From the NCBI RefSeq assembly GCF_000970285.1, contig NZ_CP009516.1, positions 4,753,036 through 4,817,035 of the forward strand: a stretch of 64,000 bases of DNA, given 5' to 3'. Both the position numbers and the translations under genes were made by a program. Position 1 is the first letter of the stretch. Every line of letters begins with the position of its first letter. The notes below the pieces were generated by a model, which did no database searches, was not told the origin of the DNA, and saw only the letters and a program-made list of their open reading frames with translations. Shown in pieces: positions 19,194 through 32,148 of this stretch. Source of the DNA: Methanosarcina horonobensis HB-1 = JCM 15518. GTDB taxonomy: Archaea > Halobacteriota > Methanosarcinia > Methanosarcinales > Methanosarcinaceae.

Positions 19194-20870
19194 ATGGATG
19201 AAGTAACAGAAATCTCGGAAAAAAAAAGTTTTATTTCGGGGTTATTCGGAAAAACAGGCGACAGTAACTCCATTTCAGACATACTGAAAAGGGCTAAAAC
19301 TTATTTTGACAAGCCTTTGAGAAGCATGCCGGCTTATGACCAGGAAAAAGAAGGACCTCTTGTAGAATTTGAAGTACCTGAAGGGTTAAGTGAAATAGAA
19401 AGATACTGGCTTCAAGAACCTTATGCTCTTGTATCTGTTCTGGAAGACCGCAGAACAAAGTACTACAGGCTGGTTGAACCTGCGCTCACAAAGTTCGAAA
19501 AAGAGCTGCTTGAAAGGCTCTACGAGGATTTTCAGGACATTCTGATCGTGAATTCCACGACTTCTAAGATAGAAAAAGATGAACTCCTTGTAGACAAAAC
19601 ACTTTTCCTTCTTGAACGCTACAAAGCTGAAATTTCGACCTCAACAATTCACAAAATAATGTATTATCTCAGAAGAAACCTGCTTGGTTATGAGAAAATC
19701 AATCCCCTTCTTTATGATTCTTATATAGAAGATATATCATGTGACGGTGTAGGAGTTCCACTCTATATTTATCATACCAGGTACCTGAATATTGAAAGTA
19801 ATATTTCTTTTGAAGAAGAAGAGCTTGACTCCCTTGTAATCAAGATGTGCCAGTTGAATAACAAGCATATCTCTGTCAGTCAGCCAATCGTGGATGCAAC
19901 AATTCAAGACGGATCAAGACTTCAGGCTATGCTAGGGAGAGAAATCACTCCCCGCGGCAGTTCTTTTACTATCCGTAAGTTCAGAAAGGACCCGATAACA
20001 CCCATCGACCTTCTCGGCTTTAAGACGTGTGATATGGAAATGCTGGTATACCTCTGGCTGGTCATTGAAAACGGATATAATATTCTTTTTGCAGGAGGTA
20101 CGGCTTCAGGAAAAACATCAATGCTTAACGCCACATCCCTTTTCATGCCTTCAACAGCCAAAATAGTCTCTATAGAAGACACAAGGGAACTCTTACTCTA
20201 CCACAACAACTGGGTCTCAGGTATTGCAAGAGAGAGCTTTTCTGCAGACTCTACAGGAGAGGTGTCCATGTATGACCTCTTAAGAGCTGCCCTGAGACAG
20301 CGTCCCGATTTCATAATTGTGGGTGAAGTAAGAGGCAGTGAAGCCCTTACTCTGTTCCAGGCAATGTCAACAGGACATGCAACAAGCTCGACAATGCACG
20401 CAGGAGATGTGCAGACTGTTATAAACAGGCTTACTCACGAACCAATAAATGTACCTCACCTTATGCTGCAGTCGCTTGATGTGCTCTGCATCCAGGAACA
20501 GGTATACATTGAAGAGAAAAGAGTCCGGAGAACCAGGAGTATTGTAGAAGTTCTTAACGTTGATCCTGAGACAGGCGACCTTGGAATTAACGAGCTTTTC
20601 AACTGGGAACCCTTGGAAGACTGTTTCCTGAAAGTTGGAGACTCCTACCTCATGCAGAATATTATGCATGTCAGAGGATGGGACTCAGGACAGTTGAAAA
20701 ACGAGATCGAGAGCCGGAGAAAGATTCTCACTTACCTTTATGAGAAGAATATGAGGAGCTATATCCAGGTATCTCTTGTGGTGCAGGCATACCAGAGTTA
20801 TCCGAAAATGGTCATGGAAGCTATAGAAAACGACACTCTGCAGGGTATGATACAGGATATGGTTGCTTAA
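19194..20870 (+). CDS. type II/IV secretion-pilus ATPase (TadA/GspE-like)
   Basis: A 558-residue secretion ATPase of the archaeal GspE/TadA/FlaI superfamily. Walker A is GGTASGKT (residues 301-308), followed by the VSIEDTREL stretch, the Walker B region DFIIVGEVRGSEA, and the histidine box with TGHATSSTMHAGD. An N-terminal domain of about 250 residues precedes it. The enzyme would power pilus assembly from the cytoplasm. It overlaps the longest reading of the next gene but ends 10 bases before that gene's likely ATG, so the motor and platform form one operon. The archaellum ATPase FlaI is the alternative, but no fla accessory genes are nearby. Confidence 0.92.
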   Translation: MDEVTEISEKKSFISGLFGKTGDSNSISDILKRAKTYFDKPLRSMPAYDQEKEGPLVEFEVPEGLSEIERYWLQEPYALVSVLEDRRTKYYRLVEPALTKFEKELLERLYEDFQDILIVNSTTSKIEKDELLVDKTLFLLERYKAEISTSTIHKIMYYLRRNLLGYEKINPLLYDSYIEDISCDGVGVPLYIYHTRYLNIESNISFEEEELDSLVIKMCQLNNKHISVSQPIVDATIQDGSRLQAMLGREITPRGSSFTIRKFRKDPITPIDLLGFKTCDMEMLVYLWLVIENGYNILFAGGTASGKTSMLNATSLFMPSTAKIVSIEDTRELLLYHNNWVSGIARESFSADSTGEVSMYDLLRAALRQRPDFIIVGEVRGSEALTLFQAMSTGHATSSTMHAGDVQTVINRLTHEPINVPHLMLQSLDVLCIQEQVYIEEKRVRRTRSIVEVLNVDPETGDLGINELFNWEPLEDCFLKVGDSYLMQNIMHVRGWDSGQLKNEIESRRKILTYLYEKNMRSYIQVSLVVQAYQSYPKMVMEAIENDTLQGMIQDMVA

Positions 20871-20880
20871 GAGGGGGAGC

Positions 20881-22869
20881 ATGGCTTATATTTCTGTGGA
20901 TGAAATAGCATACAGAACTTTTGGAAACTTCTTTTATAAAAATAGGGAGAGCTTCCGGGAGCTCAAAGCAAAGATGCGCTACTCGCATATCCCATTGTCA
21001 GTGGACCAGTACCTTGCATCAGCTTTAATATATTCGATATTTGCAGGGATAATAGGAGGTTTTTTCGGGTTCTGGCTAGGGCTGAAAACCTTCGGAGACC
21101 CTGTTTCTCGACTAAGCCTTTTTGTTGATTCCACGAGGGCAGGATTTGCAGAAGAGTACCTTTATTTGCTTGCTATTTTATTCGCCCTCTTGTTATTTGT
21201 TATAAGTTTTCTTACTGTCTTTGGAATTGCATACATCTATCCTTATTTTCAGGCAGATATCCGGCAGGCATGCATTGACAAGTCTATGCTGCCGGCAGTA
21301 ACCTACATGTACGCCCTGACAAAAGGAGGCATGTCAATTTATGATGTTTTCAGGTCTCTGAGCAGGTACGCCCATATATTCGGCACAAGCGCGGAAGAAA
21401 TCTCCTATATTGTGCGGGATATGGACTACCTAGGAAAGGACTTTATAAGTGCCCTTAACGCAGCCAAGGAACGCACTCCTTCGGAACGTTTCAAGGATTT
21501 TGTTGACGGATTAATCCTGGTTTCAAGCAGCGGGACCATAACCGAGTACATAAAAAATAAGTCAGAGCAGTACCAGGACATGGCAGAACTGGCAAATCGG
21601 AACTTGTTAAAAAGGCTTGATGTCCTTGCAGAGGTCTATGTGACTGTACTTGTCGCAGGTCCGTTATTCATAATGACAACGCTCATAGTGCTGCAGTTTT
21701 TCAGGCCAGCTTCAGCCCAGATCCTTTACATGCTAATCTATGTTATAATACCTCTTGCAACCTTGCTCTTCATAGTGCTTCTCGATACAGTGGGAGAACT
21801 CTCAATGAGCCCGAAAAAAGGTGACGTTCCTGATTATCCTATAAACCTTTCCGATATTCCGGAACTCAGCCCACATCTCAGTGCAGAAGAGGAAGAAAAG
21901 AGGGACAAAAAGTTAAAGCTATACAGACAGCTTTACAACATCAGGGACCTTATTTTTAATCCATACAGGACTATCCGTGACGAACCCAGGTATACATTCT
22001 TTTTCGGAATCCCTCTTGGACTTTACTATCTTGCCCACCTTCCGGAAGCTCTTAGAAGAAGTATCAATTTTAACTTTCACTGGAATCTGAACTTTGCCCA
22101 TATCAGCGACAGCAGCGTCCAGTTTATCAGCGCAATTGATGATTACCTGGTCATTTTTATCGTCATCGCACTCATTCCCTTCATCATATTTTATGAGATC
22201 AGGGCATGGAGAATGCGAAGAATTGACGAAAGAATGCCTGACCTGCTGAGAAACCTGTCAAGTATGAACGAGTCAGGACTTTTGCTCTCGAATTCCTTAA
22301 AAATAATAGCAGAGTCCAAGATGGGCATCCTAAGTAAAGAACTTAAAAAGCTAAAGGAGGATCTCTCATGGGGAACTTCTACTTCAAAGGCTCTCATGAA
22401 ACTGGAAAACAACATCAGAACAGCTTCATCAAGCCGAATTCTCCATACTCTCATTAAAGCAAACGAATCTACAAGCGACCTTAAAAGTGTACTTTCTATT
22501 ACCGCAAAACAGGTCAAAAGTGAGGAAAAGTTGAAAGAGGAGCGCTCTTCGGAGATGGTTGTCTATGTTGTCACTATCTACGTTGCTTTCTTTGTCTTCC
22601 TGTTCATAGTTTACATCCTGGCTGTATACTTCTTCCCTGAAAGTGCCTCGTTTAAAAACTCTTCTCAGGGGATGGGGTACGGAGGAATAGGGAACGGTTA
22701 CTTCAACATACAGGAGTATACGATGCTCATGTTCCACTCAGCCCTTGTCCAGGCTTTTACCTCGGGGCTCATTGCCGGAAAGATGGGACAGGGGTCGGTT
22801 TACATGGGGCTGAAGTACAGTGTCAGCATGATGATAATTACCTACGTAGTTTTTACAATGTTCGTTTAA
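20881..22869 (+). CDS. pilus platform protein, tandem TadC/FlaJ (GspF) type
   Basis: A 662-residue membrane protein with two successive GspF/TadC-like modules. Module one spans about residues 1-330, with transmembrane pairs near 45-70, 95-125 and 255-305. Module two spans about 400-662, with segments near 420-440, 560-585 and 620-660. The longest ORF begins with TTG at 20863, but GAGGGGG sits directly before the ATG at 20881, so that start is chosen. It would anchor the ATPase and extract pilin subunits. The duplicated layout is usual for euryarchaeal type IV pilus systems. Confidence 0.9.
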   Translation: MAYISVDEIAYRTFGNFFYKNRESFRELKAKMRYSHIPLSVDQYLASALIYSIFAGIIGGFFGFWLGLKTFGDPVSRLSLFVDSTRAGFAEEYLYLLAILFALLLFVISFLTVFGIAYIYPYFQADIRQACIDKSMLPAVTYMYALTKGGMSIYDVFRSLSRYAHIFGTSAEEISYIVRDMDYLGKDFISALNAAKERTPSERFKDFVDGLILVSSSGTITEYIKNKSEQYQDMAELANRNLLKRLDVLAEVYVTVLVAGPLFIMTTLIVLQFFRPASAQILYMLIYVIIPLATLLFIVLLDTVGELSMSPKKGDVPDYPINLSDIPELSPHLSAEEEEKRDKKLKLYRQLYNIRDLIFNPYRTIRDEPRYTFFFGIPLGLYYLAHLPEALRRSINFNFHWNLNFAHISDSSVQFISAIDDYLVIFIVIALIPFIIFYEIRAWRMRRIDERMPDLLRNLSSMNESGLLLSNSLKIIAESKMGILSKELKKLKEDLSWGTSTSKALMKLENNIRTASSSRILHTLIKANESTSDLKSVLSITAKQVKSEEKLKEERSSEMVVYVVTIYVAFFVFLFIVYILAVYFFPESASFKNSSQGMGYGGIGNGYFNIQEYTMLMFHSALVQAFTSGLIAGKMGQGSVYMGLKYSVSMMIITYVVFTMFV

Positions 22870-22940
22870 ATTTGAGTATAACAGTGTAGATAAGAAGGTC
22901 TGAAACAAGAAGTATATAAGGAAGTTGGGGGAGGAAAAGC

Positions 22941-23918
22941 ATGAGGAGTTCTAAATCCGGGAAAAAAGACATTATTCAAAGAGAAAATGCAGTATCCGAA
23001 ATTATGGGGGTAGCTCTCCTTCTCGGGATAGTGGTTATAATGCTCAGTTTCGAAGGAGCTTTTATATTTGCCAGAAGCGGGCCGGACGACCTCCCTCACG
23101 CAAATCTTCAGGAATGGATGGATACTTCGGAAGAAAAGATTTACCTGAAACACTGCAGCGGGGAGCCGATAAAAATCGAAGAGCTGGAAATAGTAGCCAG
23201 TATCAACAATACCAGATACGTCTATAACTCATCTAACGCTTACACAGAGACGGGGAGTAACGGCTACTGGGAGCTTGGAGAGGTGATCACCCTGGATGCC
23301 GGAAGCGAATGGGCACTCGACCTGAAGGACTACCATGAAATAGACCTCTATCTTGTTGACACCCCAACAAAGGAGTTGATCCAGAAATCCAGACTTACCA
23401 CGGATTTCAGGAGAGATCCTTATGTAATCGGATGGATTACACCGAGAGGAGGAGCACGTGACACCTCAAACGGAGGATCAGCGACTCTCGCGGACGTGCA
23501 GAAAGAAAATGATACCTTCTGGACTATATATAAGACCCCTACGAAAAACGGGACAGAAACAGACCCGAACATATACCAGGAAATTGATTTTGGGGTCAAC
23601 CCCTGCCTTTATGGGTACAGGCCAGGAGACAGCCTCTCAAACGTAACTCTCAAAATAGTTTACAGAACAAACGATAACTCCATCCTGAAAATACGATTGA
23701 GATTCTATGACGTGGACAGTCCCTCAAATTGGTTTTACAGAGAAATAGCGCTGCCAGAGAAAAATGCCTTCACTGCCGTGTATATACCTCTGACAGATTA
23801 CATAAATAGTACCGAAGACCTGGCTGATTTCACGGTAAGGCTCGAAGCCGTAACGAATGCAGACGAACATTCACACAAAGAAGTAAATATCGATTATCTG
23901 GGTTTATGGATAGAGTGA
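22941..23918 (+). CDS. pilin-like protein, family A, long form (325 aa)
   Basis: An archaeal type IV pilin-like precursor. A charged N-terminus is followed by the class III signal motif ENA|VSEIMG (likely cut after residue 17) and a hydrophobic helix. The pilin body has a motif near residues 68-78 (IYLKHCSGEPI) that matches the HxGGExI element of its paralogues. A second domain of about 170 residues (from WITPRGGARDTSNGG) includes NVTLKIVYRTND and ends in NIDYLGLWIE. The closest relative in the window is the gene at 28438. GGGGGAGG lies before the ATG. It is the first gene after the motor pair and probably part of the filament. Confidence 0.85.
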   Translation: MRSSKSGKKDIIQRENAVSEIMGVALLLGIVVIMLSFEGAFIFARSGPDDLPHANLQEWMDTSEEKIYLKHCSGEPIKIEELEIVASINNTRYVYNSSNAYTETGSNGYWELGEVITLDAGSEWALDLKDYHEIDLYLVDTPTKELIQKSRLTTDFRRDPYVIGWITPRGGARDTSNGGSATLADVQKENDTFWTIYKTPTKNGTETDPNIYQEIDFGVNPCLYGYRPGDSLSNVTLKIVYRTNDNSILKIRLRFYDVDSPSNWFYREIALPEKNAFTAVYIPLTDYINSTEDLADFTVRLEAVTNADEHSHKEVNIDYLGLWIE

Positions 23919-23948
23919 TAGCAGACTTGAGAATGAAGAGGGATCGGT

Positions 23949-24431
23949 ATGCTTGACATAAAAAGATTCATGAAAAACCAGAAAGCTGTTTCGGAAGTTG
24001 TTGGAGAAGTACTTCTGACAACTATAGCAGTTCTTCTTGTGAGCTCTATTGGGATATTCATTGCCACTTACGACGGGGCTACTGATATTCCTCACACTCA
24101 GGTAAGGGAATGGATGAACGCAGGAAAAGATACTATCTACCTTGAACACAGCGGAGGGGAATTTCTTGGAACCGACGCCTTCGAGATTGTGGTAAACATT
24201 AACGAACAAAAATACGTTTATCCTTCAGCCAGCATTTATTCAAACCTCAATAACAGCAGCTGGCAGCTTGGAGATAGAATTGAAATTAATACAAGCAGCG
24301 AGTGGGGAGTCAACATTACAGATGGAGATGAAATCAAGGTATTCCTTATTGACATTCCCTCAAGACAGACAATCCAGTACTTAACAATTTCTTCAAAACA
24401 GGATGTAGCTCCGGCTGGAGTATACCCATAA
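23949..24431 (+). CDS. pilin-like protein, family A, short form (160 aa)
   Basis: A 160-residue precursor with signal motif NQKA|VSEVVG (cut after about residue 13) and a hydrophobic helix to about residue 35. The core repeats the elements seen in the 325-residue neighbour: EWMNAGKDTIYLEHSGGEFL, then YVYPSASIYS and INTSSEWGVNI. It lacks the second domain, so it represents the minimal family A pilin. It lies 30 bases after the long form and 30 bases before a family B gene. Prepilin cleavage would need a class III peptidase encoded elsewhere. Confidence 0.85.
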   Translation: MLDIKRFMKNQKAVSEVVGEVLLTTIAVLLVSSIGIFIATYDGATDIPHTQVREWMNAGKDTIYLEHSGGEFLGTDAFEIVVNINEQKYVYPSASIYSNLNNSSWQLGDRIEINTSSEWGVNITDGDEIKVFLIDIPSRQTIQYLTISSKQDVAPAGVYP

Positions 24432-24461
24432 ATGTAATGAAAGATAAAAGAGGAGAGAGGC

Positions 24462-25388
24462 ATGGAGAAAAAGGGCTTTAAAGCGATTCACACTTTTTGC
24501 AGGTCAGAATCCGGGGTATCAACTGCAGTTGCTGCAGCCCTGCTTATTGGTATTGTAGTTATCTTTATGACAACTGTCCAGATCAATTACATGCCTGTCT
24601 GGAAAGAAGATGCAGAATATGCCCATATGGCTGATGTATGGCACGATATGTCAAGGTTCAAATCAAACGTGGATATCATTACTGCAGGGCTCGAAATAAA
24701 CCCCAATGCCAGGATTGTGCTTAACAGCCCCATTCAGGTTGGGGGAAGTGAAGTCCCGTTCATAAGGAGTACAACCACAGGAGGAAGCCTTGCAATCAAC
24801 AAAGACATGTCCGGTATGTCGGTGATAGTGATCGATAACGAATCCTCCGAGCTGTTTAACAGTGAGGTAGGTCTTTATTACACAGGCACGGTCTTCTACC
24901 GCCCATCAAACCTTCATTACGTGGACGAGATGTACTGCTATGAAAACGGAGCCCTTATAGTCTCCCAGAAAGGCAGATCAGTAATGAAGCTTGCCCCGAC
25001 AATCGTGATGGAAAAAGACCCCGGTTCGGTTAACCTCTTAATAAGAGGCGTAGTCCTTGACAGCCCCCGCGGCATCGTCCTGTCCAGCAACACAGTAGAA
25101 GACATAAGACTGACCTCTAAGGAAAGCAAGGCTCTCTTCAACTCGACAGATTATGAAAGCTTTTACAACATCACATCCGTAAACGTTACAATCTACACGG
25201 AAAATAAAGAAGCCTGGGAGAACTACTTCAGAGACTCAGCCTCCGACATAACCCTTTTCGAAGGTACGGACTATCACCTGGACAACAGCAGTACCTATGC
25301 AGTAACTTTTTCACTCCACCCTGTCGGAGAAGACCTTTATGTTACTGTCTATAGAAGCGTAATAAAAATAGAAACAGGGCTTCTGTAA
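24462..25388 (+). CDS. pilin-like protein, family B (308 aa)
   Basis: A 308-residue precursor with a class III-like signal SESG|VSTAVAAAL (cut after about residue 18) and one hydrophobic helix. It then shows the family B signature YMPVWKEDAEYAHMADVWHDM (shortened here), shared with the genes at 29479 and 30595. The body is β-rich, with a conserved YENGALIVSQKGRSVMKL stretch. Family B proteins resemble the euryarchaeal DUF7289-type secreted proteins; function is unknown, but the shared signal and position imply a minor pilin or surface subunit. GAGAGAGG precedes the ATG. Its stop codon lies inside a terminator-like hairpin. Confidence 0.82.
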   Translation: MEKKGFKAIHTFCRSESGVSTAVAAALLIGIVVIFMTTVQINYMPVWKEDAEYAHMADVWHDMSRFKSNVDIITAGLEINPNARIVLNSPIQVGGSEVPFIRSTTTGGSLAINKDMSGMSVIVIDNESSELFNSEVGLYYTGTVFYRPSNLHYVDEMYCYENGALIVSQKGRSVMKLAPTIVMEKDPGSVNLLIRGVVLDSPRGIVLSSNTVEDIRLTSKESKALFNSTDYESFYNITSVNVTIYTENKEAWENYFRDSASDITLFEGTDYHLDNSSTYAVTFSLHPVGEDLYVTVYRSVIKIETGLL

Positions 25389-25395
25389 GAAGCCC
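25377..25395 (+). terminator. hairpin spanning the stop codon of the family B gene
   Basis: GGGCTTC (25377-25383) and GAAGCCC (25389-25395) form a perfect 7-bp stem; the loop TGTAA contains the stop codon. A T-rich stretch (AATAATTTTTCC) follows about 20 bases later. Confidence 0.55.
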
Positions 25396-25929
25396 GAGCA
25401 TACTTCAAAAAATAATTTTTCCTGATCAATGCCTTTTAGCTGAATTAATGCCTGGCTATGCTCTAAAAAATCAAAGGCAGTTTTGGTTCAAAACGTCCAA
25501 AAAAAATATTTTTTGAGATGGCATTACTTAGTAATAATATTTATTTTAAATACTTCTCAAATACAGTTATTAAGAAGAATTAAGAGAATTACGGCCTTAA
25601 TACGAAAAGATAAGAACAAGAAGAATAGTTCTCAAAAAGTTAATACACAATCTTCATTTGTGCGCCCGTTTATAAAATTCGTTTTCGTCAACAACTATTT
25701 TTTAACTGAAATAGTTATAAATATAACTTTCTATATAATTGTAGACAATAACTGTCTTAAATTATTTATTAGAGAACTTAAAGGGGAAATGAATAACCTT
25801 AATCCAGAGAGGCAGAGATTTGTGACTACTGTTTCAACTAGTTGAGTATAAGAATCTGCAAAATGCCAGTGTTTTTTCTTTTGCAAAAACCAGTCAAGCC
25901 TGAAAATATTACTTTTAGGAGGACTTATT
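25389..25929. other. 541-base AT-rich intergenic region in the pilus locus
   Basis: A possible 120-codon frame here (25483-25845) has low-complexity, AT-driven composition and no ribosome site, so I do not call it. The region probably carries the promoter of the next pilin gene, which has its own strong Shine-Dalgarno. Confidence 0.5.
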
Positions 25930-26991
25930 TTGAATATATTTGAAAAATTCATAAAAGATTCCATAGGGGTCTCATCTGTACTGGGTGAAATTCTTATTAC
26001 GGGGATCGTTGTTATCGCATTCGGTTCGCTATTCGTAATTATAACTTCCGTTGACAAGCCTGCTGATCATACTCGTTTGTCAGTAGAAGAATGGATAGAT
26101 GCTCCCTCCGATATAATCTCCCTGCGACATGCAGGTGGGGAATCCATTGATACAGAAGACCTGAAAATCAATGTTCAAATTAACGGTACCTCTTATGTAT
26201 ATTCTTCCTCTAATATTTCCGAAAACCTGGGAAAAAGCTTCTGGGAAATGGCAGATGTTATTCAAATTAATACCAGCCAGGAATGGGGTACTGGTATTGT
26301 AAATGAAGAGAACATGGATGTAAAGTTGATTAATACAAACTCAAAGGAGGTTCTTCCTAAATACAGGATTGGCTTCTTGCCAGAGTCCTCCAAGGGTTCA
26401 TTTGAAGATTCCGTTGACTTTGATATAATAGACAATACAGTAGTTCCGCAGGAAGACTTTATCAGCAGTTTTACGGTTCTGGGAGCTGCAATTCAATCAG
26501 GCGGATATGATTTGAAGGTAACTACACGGTTTAGAGTTGGAGGTGACACTCTAGATCCCTGGCACTACTCTTTGCCGGTTACTGGCAATGTTAATGATGG
26601 TAAGGTACATATATTGAACCTTTCAACCGCTTATTCGGCAGGTACTCCCGTAACCATAAATGGCAAATCCTGGATCTGGACCAAAGATAGTAAAAAACTC
26701 TCTACAAAAGACTCAGACTGGAAGAGTTATATGGAAGTTAGTTCTTCGAGTTATTCTTCGAATTTAATAGTGCTAAGGAATGGGGATGCTGCTCCCACAA
26801 TTCCGGGTTTGGATGAGCAGCCAGACGTTGCAGAGTATATAGATGACTATGTTGAAGATGGCAAGATATTACTGGACGAAAATGAGGCTATTTTTCTGTT
26901 TGAACTCGGGACAACTGACCTTCACAGTTCTGCGGCTGATTTCCAGGACCTTGTAGTCCTTATGTCGATAGATCCGGCACCGGCAAATTAA
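25930..26991 (+). CDS. pilin-like protein, family A, long variant (353 aa)
   Basis: A 353-residue precursor starting with TTG at 25930, chosen because AGGAGG stands 7-8 bases upstream and the signal motif then falls at KDSIG|VSSVLGEILI (cut after residue 13). The pilin core carries SLRHAGGESIDTEDLKI and INTSQEWGTGI, matching family A. The distal domain (residues about 160-353) differs from those of the other long forms and has no recognisable relative here; it ends with a short hydrophobic strand (DLVVLMSIDPAPAN). Base composition is more AT-rich than in the neighbouring pilins, and it is flanked by long gaps, which suggests a separate transcript and perhaps separate acquisition. Confidence 0.8.
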   Translation: MNIFEKFIKDSIGVSSVLGEILITGIVVIAFGSLFVIITSVDKPADHTRLSVEEWIDAPSDIISLRHAGGESIDTEDLKINVQINGTSYVYSSSNISENLGKSFWEMADVIQINTSQEWGTGIVNEENMDVKLINTNSKEVLPKYRIGFLPESSKGSFEDSVDFDIIDNTVVPQEDFISSFTVLGAAIQSGGYDLKVTTRFRVGGDTLDPWHYSLPVTGNVNDGKVHILNLSTAYSAGTPVTINGKSWIWTKDSKKLSTKDSDWKSYMEVSSSSYSSNLIVLRNGDAAPTIPGLDEQPDVAEYIDDYVEDGKILLDENEAIFLFELGTTDLHSSAADFQDLVVLMSIDPAPAN

Positions 26992-27034
26992 GTCTTTTCG
27001 GTAGAATTGGAGCTTCTCGCCGGAAAAACTTAGG

Positions 27035-27081
27035 TTGGACCTGAAATCGATCCATTTTTCGATTTCGGTTCTCAGGTTCAA
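27035..27081 (+). other. large stem-loop downstream of the 353-aa pilin gene
   Basis: TTGGACCTG (27035-27043) plus AAATCGA (27044-27050) pairs with TCGATTT (27059-27065) and CAGGTTCAA (27073-27081). This leaves a 7-base bulge and one G-T pair. It is a 16-bp stem in the 3' untranslated region. Confidence 0.6.
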
Positions 27082-27158
27082 TCAAGTGAGCATGAGCTGA
27101 AACCTTTATTTCCTTCATTTTTATTTGAGGATGCTGTTGAGCTATTAAAGAGGTAGAG

Positions 27159-27180
27159 AAGATGCGAAACGCATCTTTTT
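27159..27180 (+). terminator. terminator after the 353-aa pilin gene
   Basis: AAGATGCG (27159-27166) and CGCATCTT (27170-27177) form a perfect 8-bp stem with an AAA loop, running straight into TTT. Confidence 0.7.
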
Positions 27181-27187
27181 ATGTTTC

Positions 27188-27221
27188 CTGTACTCACCTC
27201 AGATCTGTACTCACCTCAGAT
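27188..27221. repeat. 17-base tandem direct repeat
   Basis: CTGTACTCACCTCAGAT occurs twice without a gap (27188-27204 and 27205-27221), directly after the terminator. Confidence 0.85.
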
Positions 27222-27652
27222 TGGAATATATTTGAAGAAAAACTCTAAATGTTCGTGGTAAATTTGAGTTGCATTTCTTCCAGGCGTTGTACAACTTTAT
27301 GAACCTTCATAATTCTCTAAAATTAAAAATAAGTTCTAAAAACAAAAAATGTTTCTAAAGAACCTGAATGATGTCGAAAAAATAACTGATTGTATACGGA
27401 GTTTAAAAGAACTATTTACATCGGAGTTCCGGTTTAATAACTTACGGATATGGCCAAAATTAAGTTTAATTCTATAATTGGGATAAATTTCCAGAAAAAT
27501 TTTAGTATGAGGTTTTAAAGTCGACATAGTTCGTTATTTGAGAAAAAATTGTAATTTAATTTTAAGACAGTATATTGATAAGAAAGTAGTAAAAGAGAAA
27601 AAATCACTAATAAAAAATAAAAATAAATAATAAATTTTAAAAAGAAATGGAA

Positions 27653-27671
27653 AGGCACCATAAAGGTGCTC
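27653..27671 (-). terminator. terminator of the inverted small pilin gene
   Basis: On the minus strand GCACC and GGTGC (27665-27669 and 27655-27659) close a 5-base loop, 11 bases after the stop codon. It is followed by a T-rich tract (the plus strand reads AATTTTAAAAAGAAATGGAAAG). Confidence 0.55.
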
Positions 27672-27681
27672 TTGTTTGCGA

Positions 27682-28137
27682 TTAGAATCTCAGTTCCTTG
27701 TCAGCAATGAGCTGCTTGGTCTTGACATCAACGATCTTAACAGTAGCGAATTCACCAGATGTCTGAGTTAGAGTAGCTGATGAGTTACCATCTTCTGTAG
27801 TAAGGAGAAGAATCTTTGTCATTCCAACATCAAAAGTCGGGTCGCTTTCAAATGCGGAGGTGTCAAGTTCATAGCTTTGACCATCGGCTGCGAACATAAT
27901 CTTTGTTGTGTTTGGGTACAGAATAACTGTATCTCCACCAAGGTGCTCAAGTTTTATACTATCAACACCTGATGTCACAATATTGATATTCGCCTGCGGT
28001 GCAGATTCGGAAGGTCCCTGGCCGAAGACGGACGAACCGATTGCGGCGGCGAGGATGACGGTGATTGCAACCATCAGCACGACACCGATTACCGGGGACA
28101 CTGCTTTATCATTACTAAATATCTTTTTGAGATCCAT
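27682..28137 (-). CDS. small canonical type IV pilin (151 aa), inverted within the locus
   Basis: A 151-residue pilin with the most canonical signal of the set: NDKA|VSPVIGVVLMVAITVILAA (cut after residue 12), the DUF1628/Pilin_N pattern seen in haloarchaeal PilA proteins. The core has SIKLEHLGGDTVILYP, the HxGG element of family A. A very strong Shine-Dalgarno (AGGAGGGAG, complement at 28144-28152) lies before the ATG, and a hairpin terminator follows. Its own signals, small size and opposite strand suggest it is expressed separately and abundantly; it is my candidate for the major pilin. Confidence 0.88.
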   Translation of the reverse strand: MDLKKIFSNDKAVSPVIGVVLMVAITVILAAAIGSSVFGQGPSESAPQANINIVTSGVDSIKLEHLGGDTVILYPNTTKIMFAADGQSYELDTSAFESDPTFDVGMTKILLLTTEDGNSSATLTQTSGEFATVKIVDVKTKQLIADKELRF

Positions 28138-28437
28138 ATGTTTCTCCCTCCTGAGTTAATACTCCCAGACAGGACAACCTGTCGGAATTTTTAACACTTT
28201 AATGCACATACGTACAATTGTTATTTTTTATAACTGCATTCAAAGATATTCTTCGTTCTTATATAAATTTTTGCCGATACTGTTTTAGATTATTTAATAA
28301 GTATTTTCTTTATTTTTTGTTAAAGTTTTCCGCTGGTCTTGCAGGTCATAAAAAACTATTTTCAGATAGTCAGATTAATATCCAAGTAATATCGTTTAGA
28401 AAGTTAGGCAAAAGATTTATAGAAGGTGACTGTTGTC
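28138..28437. other. divergent promoter region of the small pilin and the 333-aa pilin
   Basis: About 300 AT-rich bases between divergent pilin genes. The only clear elements are the minus-strand Shine-Dalgarno at 28144-28152 and the plus-strand AAGGTGA at 28423-28429. Confidence 0.5.
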
Positions 28438-29439
28438 TTGGAGGGTAAAAAACGCAGAGCACTTGGCCGGGACTGCCAGGCAGTTTCAGAGGTAATAGGG
28501 CAGGTGCTCATGATAAGTATAGTTGTACTGGCTTTTTCTTCAATAGCCGTTTTTGTGTTTTCGGATGAGGGAGCTGTAAACCCTCCCCATACACCAAAAG
28601 CTGACCTGCAGGAAAGTATTGATACGAACGCGAATATTGTGAAAATATTCCATAAGGGAGGAGAAGCAATCGACCTGAAAGATGCAAAAGTTGTTCTCAA
28701 TATCAACGGGCAACAGGAAGAGTTTGATTTGTCTTCCGACCCTGGTGTTAGCTACACTGCCACAAATAATGTCCTGATGGTCGGGGACAATATTGTAATC
28801 AATACGAGCCGGAGCAGGGGAAAAAACCTGAAAAGCACGGATACCATTGACATGTATTTTGTACATACAGGATCTGATCAGGTAATCCAGAGAGTTACGC
28901 TTCAGAACGGAGGAAAGGAAAGCGAAAGTTCTGATGACACTTATGGCACTGGTAAATACTGGATAACTCCTCATCCGAACGGAACAGCAACTGATACTTC
29001 TGAAGGGTGGATCTCGACAGGAGCAGTTAATGAAACCGGAGACGGGGTTTTCACTACGTATTATGCTGCAGATAAAAAAGACGGAGACCCCAATTCCACA
29101 GCCCAGATATTCGATTTCGACATCGATGCAGACAGGGAAGGAGTTTCGGAACATTTCAACAACGTAACTTTAAAAATAGTATATAGTGTGCACGATAAAA
29201 ATTACGATTATATCGCACTTGATATCAGTGTCGAGGATCCTGAAAAATGGATAAGAGTCGAATCTGATATGCCGGAGTACAATAAAAACTTTGAGCCCGA
29301 CTACGTAGACCTCTCTTCCTATGTGAAAAATATTGAAGAACTTGAGGCATTCAAAGTAAGGATAGTTGCTGTCACAAATGCGAGCAACAAAGCCGGGAAG
29401 ACCGCATGGATAGACTTCCTCGGAATCCATGTAGAATAA
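28438..29439 (+). CDS. pilin-like protein, family A, long form (333 aa)
   Basis: A paralogue of the gene at 22941. The signal is CQA|VSEVIGQVLMISIVVLAF. The core has IVKIFHKGGEAIDLKDAKV, and the second domain begins with KYWITPHPNGTATDTSEG and ends in AWIDFLGIHVE; both parallel the 22941 protein (WITPRGG and IDYLGLWIE). A GTG at 28426 would add four residues, but AAGGTGA at 28423-28429 is well placed for TTG at 28438, which I prefer. It heads the second group of pilin genes, 39 bases before a family B gene. Confidence 0.82.
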   Translation: MEGKKRRALGRDCQAVSEVIGQVLMISIVVLAFSSIAVFVFSDEGAVNPPHTPKADLQESIDTNANIVKIFHKGGEAIDLKDAKVVLNINGQQEEFDLSSDPGVSYTATNNVLMVGDNIVINTSRSRGKNLKSTDTIDMYFVHTGSDQVIQRVTLQNGGKESESSDDTYGTGKYWITPHPNGTATDTSEGWISTGAVNETGDGVFTTYYAADKKDGDPNSTAQIFDFDIDADREGVSEHFNNVTLKIVYSVHDKNYDYIALDISVEDPEKWIRVESDMPEYNKNFEPDYVDLSSYVKNIEELEAFKVRIVAVTNASNKAGKTAWIDFLGIHVE

Positions 29440-29478
29440 AACAAATGATAAAGAAAAAAACAGGGGGATAGGGGAAGC

Positions 29479-30411
29479 ATGAAGAGAAACAGGGGCAGCG
29501 AATTCGACCCCTACCCGTACTCTTTTTTTCGGTCCGAATCTGCCGCATCGACAGCTATAGCATTTATTTTGCTTTTAGGGATAGTATTTTCAGTTTTTTC
29601 TGTAGTTCATCTGGGATATGTCCCTGAATGGAAAACTGACGCAGAACACTCCCATGTGGCCGATGTATGGGAGGATGTGACAAAACTCAAATCGAAAATA
29701 GACAGGACTACAATACTCCTGATGTCAGACCAGAACTCCACAACCTCAAATATTACTATAATAATGCCCCTTCGTACCGGAAGCATGGAAATGCCTCTTA
29801 CCGGTTCCTCAAGATTCAGCGGAATAGTTTCCGTAAACGCAGATGCGTGCAACATGACAATAGTAACTCCGGTAAATGGTAGTGAGAGGGTTATAAACTG
29901 CGGCACCATTTCCTACACCTCTAATAATAATTATTATGTGAACCAGATCTTCAAGTATGAAAACGGAGCTTTGATTCTTGCGCAAAAAGAACAATCGGTC
30001 ATGAAACTTTATCCAATGATCCGCGTCTCCGAAGTTTCGGATAAAAACTACAGTTTTTCAATCAATGCAATCGAAATACGAGGTTTTGCAGACTCCCTTT
30101 CATCAAACTCGGACTGTTCCGTTCGCCTTAGAGACTGTTCATTTAGCTCTTTCTATGACAGTGAAGACCACGAAAACATGAGTTCTTTTGCTTTAAAAAT
30201 AAACACTACCCATCCGGAAGCCTGGGAGGCCTATTTTAACGAAACGATGAAAGGAGCCGGACTGGAGAAAGATAAAGATTACACCCTTGATATTGTAGAA
30301 AATGATTACCTGTACCTTTCATTTCCGGAAAACGGAAGTGACAGCAGCCTGGACAGACTTTACGTTGGCAAAACCACAGCTAATGCAGAGCTGATTAATG
30401 GTTTGATCTGA
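29479..30411 (+). CDS. pilin-like protein, family B (310 aa)
   Basis: A 310-residue paralogue of the gene at 24462. The signal SESA|ASTAIAFILLLG starts the hydrophobic helix near residue 23, then YVPEWKTDAEHSHVADVWED gives the family B signature. A later conserved segment reads YENGALILAQKEQSVMKLYP. Several N-x-S/T sequons suggest N-glycosylation of a surface protein, a common trait in Methanosarcina envelopes. It pairs with the family A gene at 28438 just as 24462 pairs with 22941/23949, so the A+B module is duplicated. GGGGGATAGGGGAAGC precedes the ATG. Confidence 0.82.
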   Translation: MKRNRGSEFDPYPYSFFRSESAASTAIAFILLLGIVFSVFSVVHLGYVPEWKTDAEHSHVADVWEDVTKLKSKIDRTTILLMSDQNSTTSNITIIMPLRTGSMEMPLTGSSRFSGIVSVNADACNMTIVTPVNGSERVINCGTISYTSNNNYYVNQIFKYENGALILAQKEQSVMKLYPMIRVSEVSDKNYSFSINAIEIRGFADSLSSNSDCSVRLRDCSFSSFYDSEDHENMSSFALKINTTHPEAWEAYFNETMKGAGLEKDKDYTLDIVENDYLYLSFPENGSDSSLDRLYVGKTTANAELINGLI

Positions 30412-30594
30412 ACTTTGTAACTACTGTTGCTCATAGATAACAGACTAAATCGAACTGGAATAAAATAAGCCAAATTAAGCCGCCTTCAGTATAAGGACTA
30501 AAAAGTAGACATTAAAAGGTAGGAAATTAAAAAACGGAAATTCAAGGATTTATATTTGAAAAATATTAAATAAAAAATTATGTGATGTCTAGCT

Positions 30595-32148
30595 ATGAAG
30601 ACCAGAAAGAACGGAAGCAGGGAAAAGGCAAGAAAAAGCCTCTTTAACTCGGAATCTGCAGGAGCTACCGTAGTTGCGGCAGTTTTGCTGCTGAGCATCA
30701 TATTTACTGTACTTGCAGTTGTCAGGATTGAGTATGTCCCGACGTGGAAAACTGATGCAGAACAATCACACATGAGTAAGGTTCAGAAAGATATGGCTGA
30801 ACTCAAATCAACAGCAGATATGGTATCTCTCTTTACGTCTTCGGACTCAAATGCATCAGCATATGGATTCCCTGTAACTGTTTCGTTCAGTATGGGAGGA
30901 GGAGAAATTCCGATTCTGGAACCTTCAAAATCAAGCGGGACACTTTCAGTAAACACGGAACGCTATAGAATGACCATAACTCCCGAAAGGTCTGCGATCC
31001 TAGCTTCCCCTCAAGTCCTGGACTGCGGAGGTGTTACCTATTATTCGAATAATAGGGAGTACATGGACCAGGTCTTCAGGTATGAAAACGGAGCCCTTAT
31101 CCTTTCTCAAAAAGACAGATCATTGATGAGGCAGTCTCCTTCATTCAATATAAAACAGACAAATGGGACTAACTATACCGTCTCAATCCACGCAATCAAA
31201 ATGACAGGAGACCCTGATAGTGTTTCTTCAAACACTGATGCTTCTTTGAGGCTGACAGGGCTTTATACCGAACCTGTCTATGACAGCAATGACTCAGGAG
31301 GAATTGATTCTTTTACCTGCACAATACTCACGGGATATCCAGATGCCTGGGTATCCTACCTCAACGAAACCGCAAAAAATGCAGGCCTTGAATATGAAAC
31401 GGATTATACGATAGATAAAGTAAGCTCGGATACTGTATATGTTTCTTTCCTGGATAACGGCAGTAAAAACCTTGAAAGGCTCTATGTCAGCAAATCTGTT
31501 ATTCTGGCAGAACTGGGAGCTGGTGGTGTTCTGGACAATGGAGAAGTCAGCAATTCTGAGTCCGATGAAGGGACCAATGATTCCGAGTCCGACGAAGATG
31601 AGGATGAATCCGGGAGCGAACTAATTCATGGAAACCGGACTATATTAAACAAAAATGGAATTGGAGGGGTTATTCCCTCAGGAACTTACATTCAATTTAA
31701 AAATACAAAAAATAACAATTGCTGGGTTAAAATTGACGGTTTCAAAAAGGAACTTAGCAAGAATGATATTGTAAAGCTTGTAATAGATGGGGACCAGATG
31801 TCTGGAACTGCAGATATGAGCGGAAAGCAAATTACAAACTTCAATTTTAATGTTAAGATGTACATTAATGGTGAGTATGTGGATCAAGGGAAAGTTACGG
31901 GAATGCAGGTAAAAGATTATTCAGACTATGAATCAAATTTAACTTACAGGCTTCAATCGTACTTATCCGGTACCCAATTACAGGTTGACGGAAATAACTT
32001 GATTAGCTGGTGGCCACATAATAACTCAGCAATAAATCTTTACAACATAGGACCATCACCTACCAATAACGAGTTCCTAAGAATTAATTTTGATTCAGGA
32101 AGCACATACTTTGACTGCAGCGCAGATTATGAGATAATTAACAACTAA
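30595..32148 (+). CDS. enlarged family B pilin-like protein with acidic linker and extra C-terminal domain (517 aa)
   Basis: Residues 1-305 form a third family B protein: signal SESA|GATVVAAVLLLS, then EYVPTWKTDAEQSHMSKVQKD and YENGALILSQKDRSLMRQ. A linker of about 35 residues, dominated by E, D and S (NSESDEGTNDSESDEDEDES), follows. A C-terminal domain of about 170 residues, unlike anything else in the window, is β-rich with many Asn/Gly (WVKIDGFKKEL, LISWWPHNNSAINLY, STYFDCSADYEIINN). The DNA coding for the last domain is more AT-rich than the first part, consistent with domain acquisition. As the largest pilin-like subunit it could be a tip adhesin; that is inference. Confidence 0.8.
   Translation: MKTRKNGSREKARKSLFNSESAGATVVAAVLLLSIIFTVLAVVRIEYVPTWKTDAEQSHMSKVQKDMAELKSTADMVSLFTSSDSNASAYGFPVTVSFSMGGGEIPILEPSKSSGTLSVNTERYRMTITPERSAILASPQVLDCGGVTYYSNNREYMDQVFRYENGALILSQKDRSLMRQSPSFNIKQTNGTNYTVSIHAIKMTGDPDSVSSNTDASLRLTGLYTEPVYDSNDSGGIDSFTCTILTGYPDAWVSYLNETAKNAGLEYETDYTIDKVSSDTVYVSFLDNGSKNLERLYVSKSVILAELGAGGVLDNGEVSNSESDEGTNDSESDEDEDESGSELIHGNRTILNKNGIGGVIPSGTYIQFKNTKNNNCWVKIDGFKKELSKNDIVKLVIDGDQMSGTADMSGKQITNFNFNVKMYINGEYVDQGKVTGMQVKDYSDYESNLTYRLQSYLSGTQLQVDGNNLISWWPHNNSAINLYNIGPSPTNNEFLRINFDSGSTYFDCSADYEIINN

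Follow-up and report, generated by a model that had tools for sequence, protein, structure and literature searches.

Euryarchaeal type IV pili of clade 2 follow a plan that comprises an ATPase, a TadC platform, a major pilin of the PilA family and the duplication-prone minor pilin arCOG02911 of 250-550 amino acids (aa; Makarova et al. 2016, PMC4858521). The locus at positions 19194-32148 of the window, i.e. the complete 64,000-nucleotide stretch of Methanosarcina horonobensis HB-1 DNA analyzed here, conforms to this clade 2 (PilB3/PilA) plan of euryarchaea. It harbors a PilB3-type ATPase of the VirB11 family (motor 1) with an adjoining TadC and pilins of the Pilin_N family, henceforth family A, and the genome encodes Peptidase_A24. 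The remaining precursors (family B) belong to DUF7289, which is provisionally taken as the duplication-prone minor pilin arCOG02911, judged by size, context and duplication in a comparison by description. The locus differs from the published plan in the location of its pilins in cis, in the exchanged C-terminal domains (C-domains) of the long A pilins and the B protein B-gamma, and in the presence of two motors that apparently divide the pilins. Our literature search on arCOG02911, DUF7289 and pilin recombination in Methanosarcina retrieved only the 2016 census, and no published function or solved structure of DUF7289.

Haloferax volcanii (8fj5, PilA1-6) also has several PilA-type pilins per genome, and the short A pilin 27682 of our locus matches its pilus subunit 8fj5 at 2e-13. 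In contrast to the locus described here, the pilB3-C3 genes of Haloferax lack adjoining pilins (PMC4858521), and 8fj5 is short and free of an added domain; Haloferax motors can share pilin sets (PMC6491452). The Aap pilus of Sulfolobus acidocaldarius is likewise encoded by a small locus with two pilins and one ATPase, but its shaft is made of AapB alone, so that an archaeal two-pilin locus can still build a one-pilin shaft (PMC11178815), and our search of the S. acidocaldarius genome for DUF7289 gave no match. The nearest functional parallel is probably PilB/PilC of Streptococcus sanguinis (PMC9934059), where a pilin body carries a C-terminal graft of adhesive modules predicted at the tip. The pilin families and modules of the two systems are unrelated, and those of Methanosarcina vary among orthologs of one locus; an adhesive role is predicted for them by analogy. 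The architecture of a modular pilin, a pilin body with an added C-terminal domain, is found in the long A pilins and in B-gamma. The general plan is already known; what extends beyond it are three old B groups, exchanged C-domains together with divergent pilins, and the probable involvement of a second motor. We regard it as likely that the locus encodes an adhesion-type clade 2 pilus with a shaft of short A pilins, modular recombining adhesin pilins and two motors.

Pfam searches confirmed the composition proposed in the initial annotation, with ten open reading frames that encode an ATPase/platform pair and eight pilin-like precursors, of which five belong to family A and the other three to family B (Table 1). 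Family A (PF07790; genes 22941, 23949, 25930, 27682 on the reverse strand, and 28438) was recovered with E values of 2e-17 to 8e-22, and family B (PF23960) comprises 24462, 29479 and 30595; within the window genome, which is complete (5,018,607 bp), DUF7289 is confined to this locus. All Pilin_N and DUF7289 matches at the locus exceed the curated Pfam cut-offs and are thus not due to chance. The motifs that had been noticed in the two families are present as well, namely H-x-[GS]-G in family A (HCSG in 22941) and the Y-x-P-x-W-K-x-D-A-E signature in family B. The combination of two families with one motor had been considered special, but it corresponds to the known clade 2 plan (PMC4858521). 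DUF7289 occurs in 124 of 147 sampled genomes and in 61 of the 70 sampled genera of the phylum, and a motor this similar (criterion: similarity at E 1e-125) in 123 of the same 147 genomes. Both are found together in 119 genomes and neither in 19; the nine discordant cases contain B without the motor (G082, G083, G088, G107, G140) or the motor without B (G035, G042, G078, G152; Fisher 8.8e-16, uncorrected for kinship). A predominance of family B proteins apart from pilin motors had been put forward as evidence against the initial proposal; such proteins are limited to five genomes. The A+B plan thus has no novelty, given that A and B with this motor represent the clade 2 plan and that DUF7289 together with the motor is widespread across the phylum, and we rejected a new pilus class based on two subunit families.

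The assignment to a pilus is equally clear from the motor. Motor 1 reaches 27.0 bits with PilB3_N, exactly the Pfam cut-off of 27, and 24.0 bits with PilB3_C, slightly under 27; an ortholog with 78-94% identity is present in 29 of 31 Methanosarcina genomes. The start of the platform gene (20863) overlaps the stop of the ATPase gene (20870). With the archaellum ATPase model (FlaI equivalog) motor 1 scores 392 bits versus a cut-off of 550, and the locus lacks archaellum accessory genes between 19194 and 32148, as had been noted; the flanks are formed by a cysteine-desulfurase-like gene and FdhD. This is a pilus locus and not an archaellum, and an archaellum-like system was ruled out. Candidate prepilin peptidases are encoded elsewhere in the window genome (two Peptidase_A24 matches over the cut-off, at 4528882 and 145321).

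To compare the organization of the pilin genes, we mapped the locus in 25 Methanosarcina genomes and in 15 further genomes with profiles built in this analysis. Module 1, located directly after TadC in ten genomes, consists of a long A, B-alpha and, between them, a short A that may be replaced by another long A. Module 2 contains an inverted short A in one to five tandem copies, a long A, B-beta and B-gamma, and it is nearly genus-wide; the orthologous locus of G001 combines both modules. None of the Methanosarcina clusters examined contains one family without the other; their expected position beside the motor holds for only about 12 genomes, in which motor 1 adjoins module 2. Elsewhere the A/B cluster is found 110 kb to 1 Mb from the motor (G003, G004, G006, G029, G030) or on other contigs. 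Other genera of the family harbor a short A, a B of about 260 aa and a B of about 480 aa; their maps show no long A and no motor within about 10 kb of the cluster. The apparent duplication of an A+B set was not corroborated. The two sets differ (A-A-B versus A-B-B), and in a tree of 80 B proteins alpha, beta and gamma represent three separate orthologous groups within Methanosarcina, so the “duplication” of B is older than the radiation of the genus. A recent duplication of the set was therefore rejected.

The locus had also been annotated as a system with a single motor. However, the window genome contains a second one (motor 2; 557,684-559,306), a PilB3-type ATPase of 839 aa that exceeds both PilB3 cut-offs. 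It is accompanied by a TadC, a KaiC-family gene and a gene for an exported-looking protein of 205 aa (L112: 7639-14013), and no pilin gene is located beside it. Orthologs of motor 2 are present in ten of the 31 Methanosarcina genomes, which are exactly the ten that contain B-alpha (Fisher 2e-8, uncorrected); the idea of one motor is probably too simple for this reason. The distribution of motor 1 follows that of B-beta/gamma, with both present in 27 of the 31 genomes, neither in two, and the motor only in two incomplete genomes. One example is G009 (one contig, 99% complete), where the motor 1 ATPase is lost, TadC is a remnant, the long A of module 2 is a stub and B-beta/gamma are missing, and where module 1 and motor 2 are intact. 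The site of this natural deletion is L055:7440-12254. Both motors are probably supplied by this cluster, motor 1 from module 2 and motor 2 from module 1.

The C-domain of B-gamma appears to have been exchanged. Type I is present in four genomes (window, G001, G010, G020) and type II in twelve; seven genomes have none, and G029 seems to possess a broken type II frame. The absence is real in G007, because the distance from the B-gamma stop to FdhD is only about 220 bp. Two further tails are known, Ig-like (immunoglobulin-like) repeats with a beta-propeller in G011 and, in G022, PKD joined to a type II-like portion in an additional gene copy. Between the window and G010 the B-gamma bodies are 51% and the C-domains 76% identical (52% and 71% for G020), and G010 shares 77-79% with the bodies of G008 and G022, whose C-domains are unrelated to its own. 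The comparison with G001 (body 81%, C-domain 74%) looks vertical. Judged from these sequences, the C-domain forms do not track the body tree. HHalign relates the long-A domain to the type II domain of B-gamma (probability 78, E 1.8e-5, one comparison), and it detected no kinship of the type I domain or the 25930 domain to other C-domains; a single domain family for all C-domains was thus rejected.

The modules appear to differ in their allelic history. Module 1 of the window is nearest to that of G020 (long A 82%, short A 80%), and module 2 is nearest to that of G001 (long A 80%, B-beta 81%, B-gamma 79%, versus 52%, 47% and 51% in G020). A comparison with six close relatives (G001, G007, G008, G010, G020, G023) documents that the pilins are far more variable than their motor. 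Identities amount to 90-93% for the motor and 85-89% for TadC, but to 40-82% for the pilins; those of the flanks are 88-97% for the cysteine-desulfurase-like (SufS-like), HisB and HisA genes where present, and 80-85% for FdhD. Approximately unbiased (AU) tests reject the motor clade of nine genomes (support 98/98) on the trees of the B-beta body (7e-6) and the B-gamma body (3e-4). The rejection persists without G020, and an earlier test on a group of ten genomes, G022 among them, agreed with it. Recombination between species would be the simplest explanation for the conflict and the exchange. The initial proposal of exchangeable subunits is supported on an evolutionary time scale by the B-gamma C-domain swaps and the conflict between B and motor trees.

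Family A occurs in two forms, a short one with only the pilin body (151 and 160 aa) and a long one with body and C-terminal domain (325-353 aa). The short A 27682, which has a strong ribosome-binding site, scores 51.8 bits with TIGR02537 (cut-off 20), and it is the predicted major pilin of the shaft. The long A of module 2 (gene 28426) comprises a Pilin_N body and about 160 further residues; its AlphaFold model (predicted local distance difference test, pLDDT, 77.5) contains a body that resembles Haloferax 8fj5 in a fold search. Fold matches of the C-domain include the CBM32-type modules 4lpl and 4a42 among other beta-sandwich proteins, with modest TM-scores (template modeling scores), and this fold similarity suggests that the domain may bind carbohydrates. 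In the B-gamma model the body is confident over most of its length; a long N-terminal helix, which breaks at the proline of the family B signature, is followed by beta structure. HHalign joined families A and B at 95% over 40 N-terminal columns that correspond to the pilin N-terminal helix, which supports the pilin-like nature of B. The family A precursors have the sequence form of a class III signal, and the B precursors may likewise be cleaved by the class III peptidase.

According to the proposed mechanism, a prepilin peptidase would trim the precursors, and ATPase and platform would polymerize them into a shaft of short A pilins, primarily 27682 and perhaps also 23949. The long A and DUF7289 proteins, above all B-gamma, would be minor “modular pilins” whose extra beta-rich domains, placed at or near the tip, might determine the binding target of the pilus. 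These surface parts may diversify by recombination, with B-gamma C-domains traded between orthologs while motor and flanks stay conserved. In this scheme the adjacent motor 1 would handle module 2, and the pilin-less motor 2 beside the KaiC-family gene would handle module 1. Swappable end domains and variable pilins are expected of an attachment organ whose target keeps changing. It is conceivable, if slightly doubtful, that this single locus is a recombination-driven diversifier of surface specificity, in which a conserved motor and flanks enclose cassettes of modular pilins, with end domains swapped between species and two motors that divide the cassettes. The swapped end domains would then be type I, the long-A-like beta domain, Ig repeats with beta-propeller, PKD or none.

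Several observations weigh against the adhesion pilus with modular pilins and two motors. The match between motors and modules is a strong lead and not a proof, because the number of independent events in evolution behind it is small; part of the tree conflict may be due to hidden paralogs that were lost differentially. The type I C-domain of 30595 is poorly modeled (pLDDT <50 over much of the domain), and carbohydrate binding is therefore suggested for the long-A domain only. The B-gamma/DUF7289 body has no significant match in the PDB by fold or sequence, and the site ahead of the hydrophobic stretch of B reads S-E-S-[AG], without the usual basic residue at -2. An alternative that deserves serious consideration, although we do not quite favor it, is one motor for all eight pilins, in which case shared descent would explain why module 1 and motor 2 coincide; it is compatible with an adhesion pilus. 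Module 1 follows directly after motor 1 and is probably co-transcribed with it, the motor tree places most of the ten genomes in a single clade, and Haloferax PilB3-C3 can work with pilins of another set (PMC6491452). Evidence against this alternative comes from three genomes: G024, located within the clade, possesses motor 1 and module 2 but neither B-alpha nor motor 2, G022 has both of them outside the clade, and G009 retains them despite the loss of motor 1 and B-beta/gamma.

The initial annotation had named a heteropolymeric filament as one of two options. A and B would then be major subunits that alternate in the shaft, which we consider improbable. Several precursors adjoin one motor, and the published archaellum of Methanocaldococcus villosus has two archaellins (PMC8821640, as described in PMC11178815), but the shaft of the AapA/AapB pilus held one pilin only (PMC11178815), and the bulky C-domains of the long A pilins and B-gamma would be hard to pack. 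Codon adaptation points in both directions. It is as high in B-alpha as in the short A pilins, in line with two major subunits, and low in B-beta and B-gamma (20-22% of window genes below), which argues against them. It weakly favors the short A pilins and B-alpha over the other pilins; as a marker of the major pilin it was dropped, being weak and unspecific. There is also little to recommend a membrane- or pseudopilus-type device, in which B and the long A pilins remain in the envelope as secretion or binding parts. Its basis would be the residual adhesion of Haloferax without pilB3-C3, ascribed to membrane-held pilins (PMC6491452), and the fold of DUF7289 unlike that of solved pilins. However, the set includes the PilA-like 27682, which is similar to the subunit of an extended pilus (8fj5) and often amplified. 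An adhesion-type pilus thus remains the preferred explanation.

Archaeal minor pilins are almost uncharacterized, and DUF7289 shares this status despite its occurrence in the majority of genera across the phylum. The data suggest that archaeal pili may bear interchangeable adhesive modules like some bacterial modular pilins, and B-gamma with the boundary between its body and C-domain is a defined place to examine them. The proposed pairing of each pilin set with its own motor is testable, as the genus is amenable to genetics (Methanosarcina acetivorans, M. mazei). Attachment of Methanosarcina to surfaces is relevant to its aggregation and to its contacts with bacterial partners.

Table 1. Genes of the clade 2 pilus locus in the window
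Feature	Position	Strand	Best family match and remarks
Motor 1, PilB3-type type IV pilus assembly ATPase, 558 aa	19194..20870	+	T2SSE 4e-33
TadC/PilC-type membrane platform, 668 aa, TTG start	20863..22869	+	T2SSF 3.7e-33, two stretches
Module 1 long A, Pilin_N body and C-terminal beta domain, 325 aa	22941..23918	+	Pilin_N 2e-17
Module 1 short A, 160 aa	23949..24431	+	Pilin_N 4e-19
Module 1 B-alpha, DUF7289 pilin-like, 308 aa	24462..25388	+	DUF7289 3e-11; own orthologous group
Accessory long A, 353 aa, TTG start, third C-terminal domain type	25930..26991	+	Pilin_N 2e-17
Inverted short A, canonical PilA type (KAVSPVIGVVLMVAITVILAAAIGSSVFG), 151 aa	27682..28137	-	Pilin_N 8e-22
Module 2 long A, 337 aa (GTG 28426) or 333 aa (TTG 28438)	28426..29439	+	Pilin_N 5e-22
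Module 2 B-beta, DUF7289 pilin-like, 310 aa	29479..30411	+	DUF7289 1.6e-7; own orthologous group
Module 2 B-gamma, DUF7289 body (~1-308), acidic linker, exchangeable type I C-domain (~345-517)	30595..32148	+	DUF7289 7e-8

Some of these genes vary in form among the relatives. Orthologs of 22941 are located behind TadC in about ten genomes. The codon adaptation of 23949 exceeds that of 95% of the window genes, and its orthologs at L096, L098, L103 and L106 are 316-321 aa long and carry a C-terminal domain. The inverted short PilA-type pilin is present in five tandem copies in G018 (L064:8144-11990), and G011 encodes an 870 aa protein in which DUF7289 is fused with Ig-like repeats and a YncE/NHL-type beta-propeller (L057:11819-14428). 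Between 25930 and 27682 the window contains an AT-rich region of about 690 bp (26992-27681; GC down to 38%) without a convincing gene. Elsewhere in the window genome Pilin_N was detected in three stand-alone genes of 154-226 aa at 636,146, 1,139,877 and 4,704,739 (L113, L114, L115), two of which adjoin housekeeping genes; they are possibly further pilins used in trans. The C-domain of 25930 is found in 11 of the 31 genomes, mostly at other genome sites. In G007, about 45 kb from the pilus locus, relatives of 25930 are arranged in tandem (L130:5597-9604), apparently as another variable pilin array; the linker of one of them consists of PTETPTET repeats.

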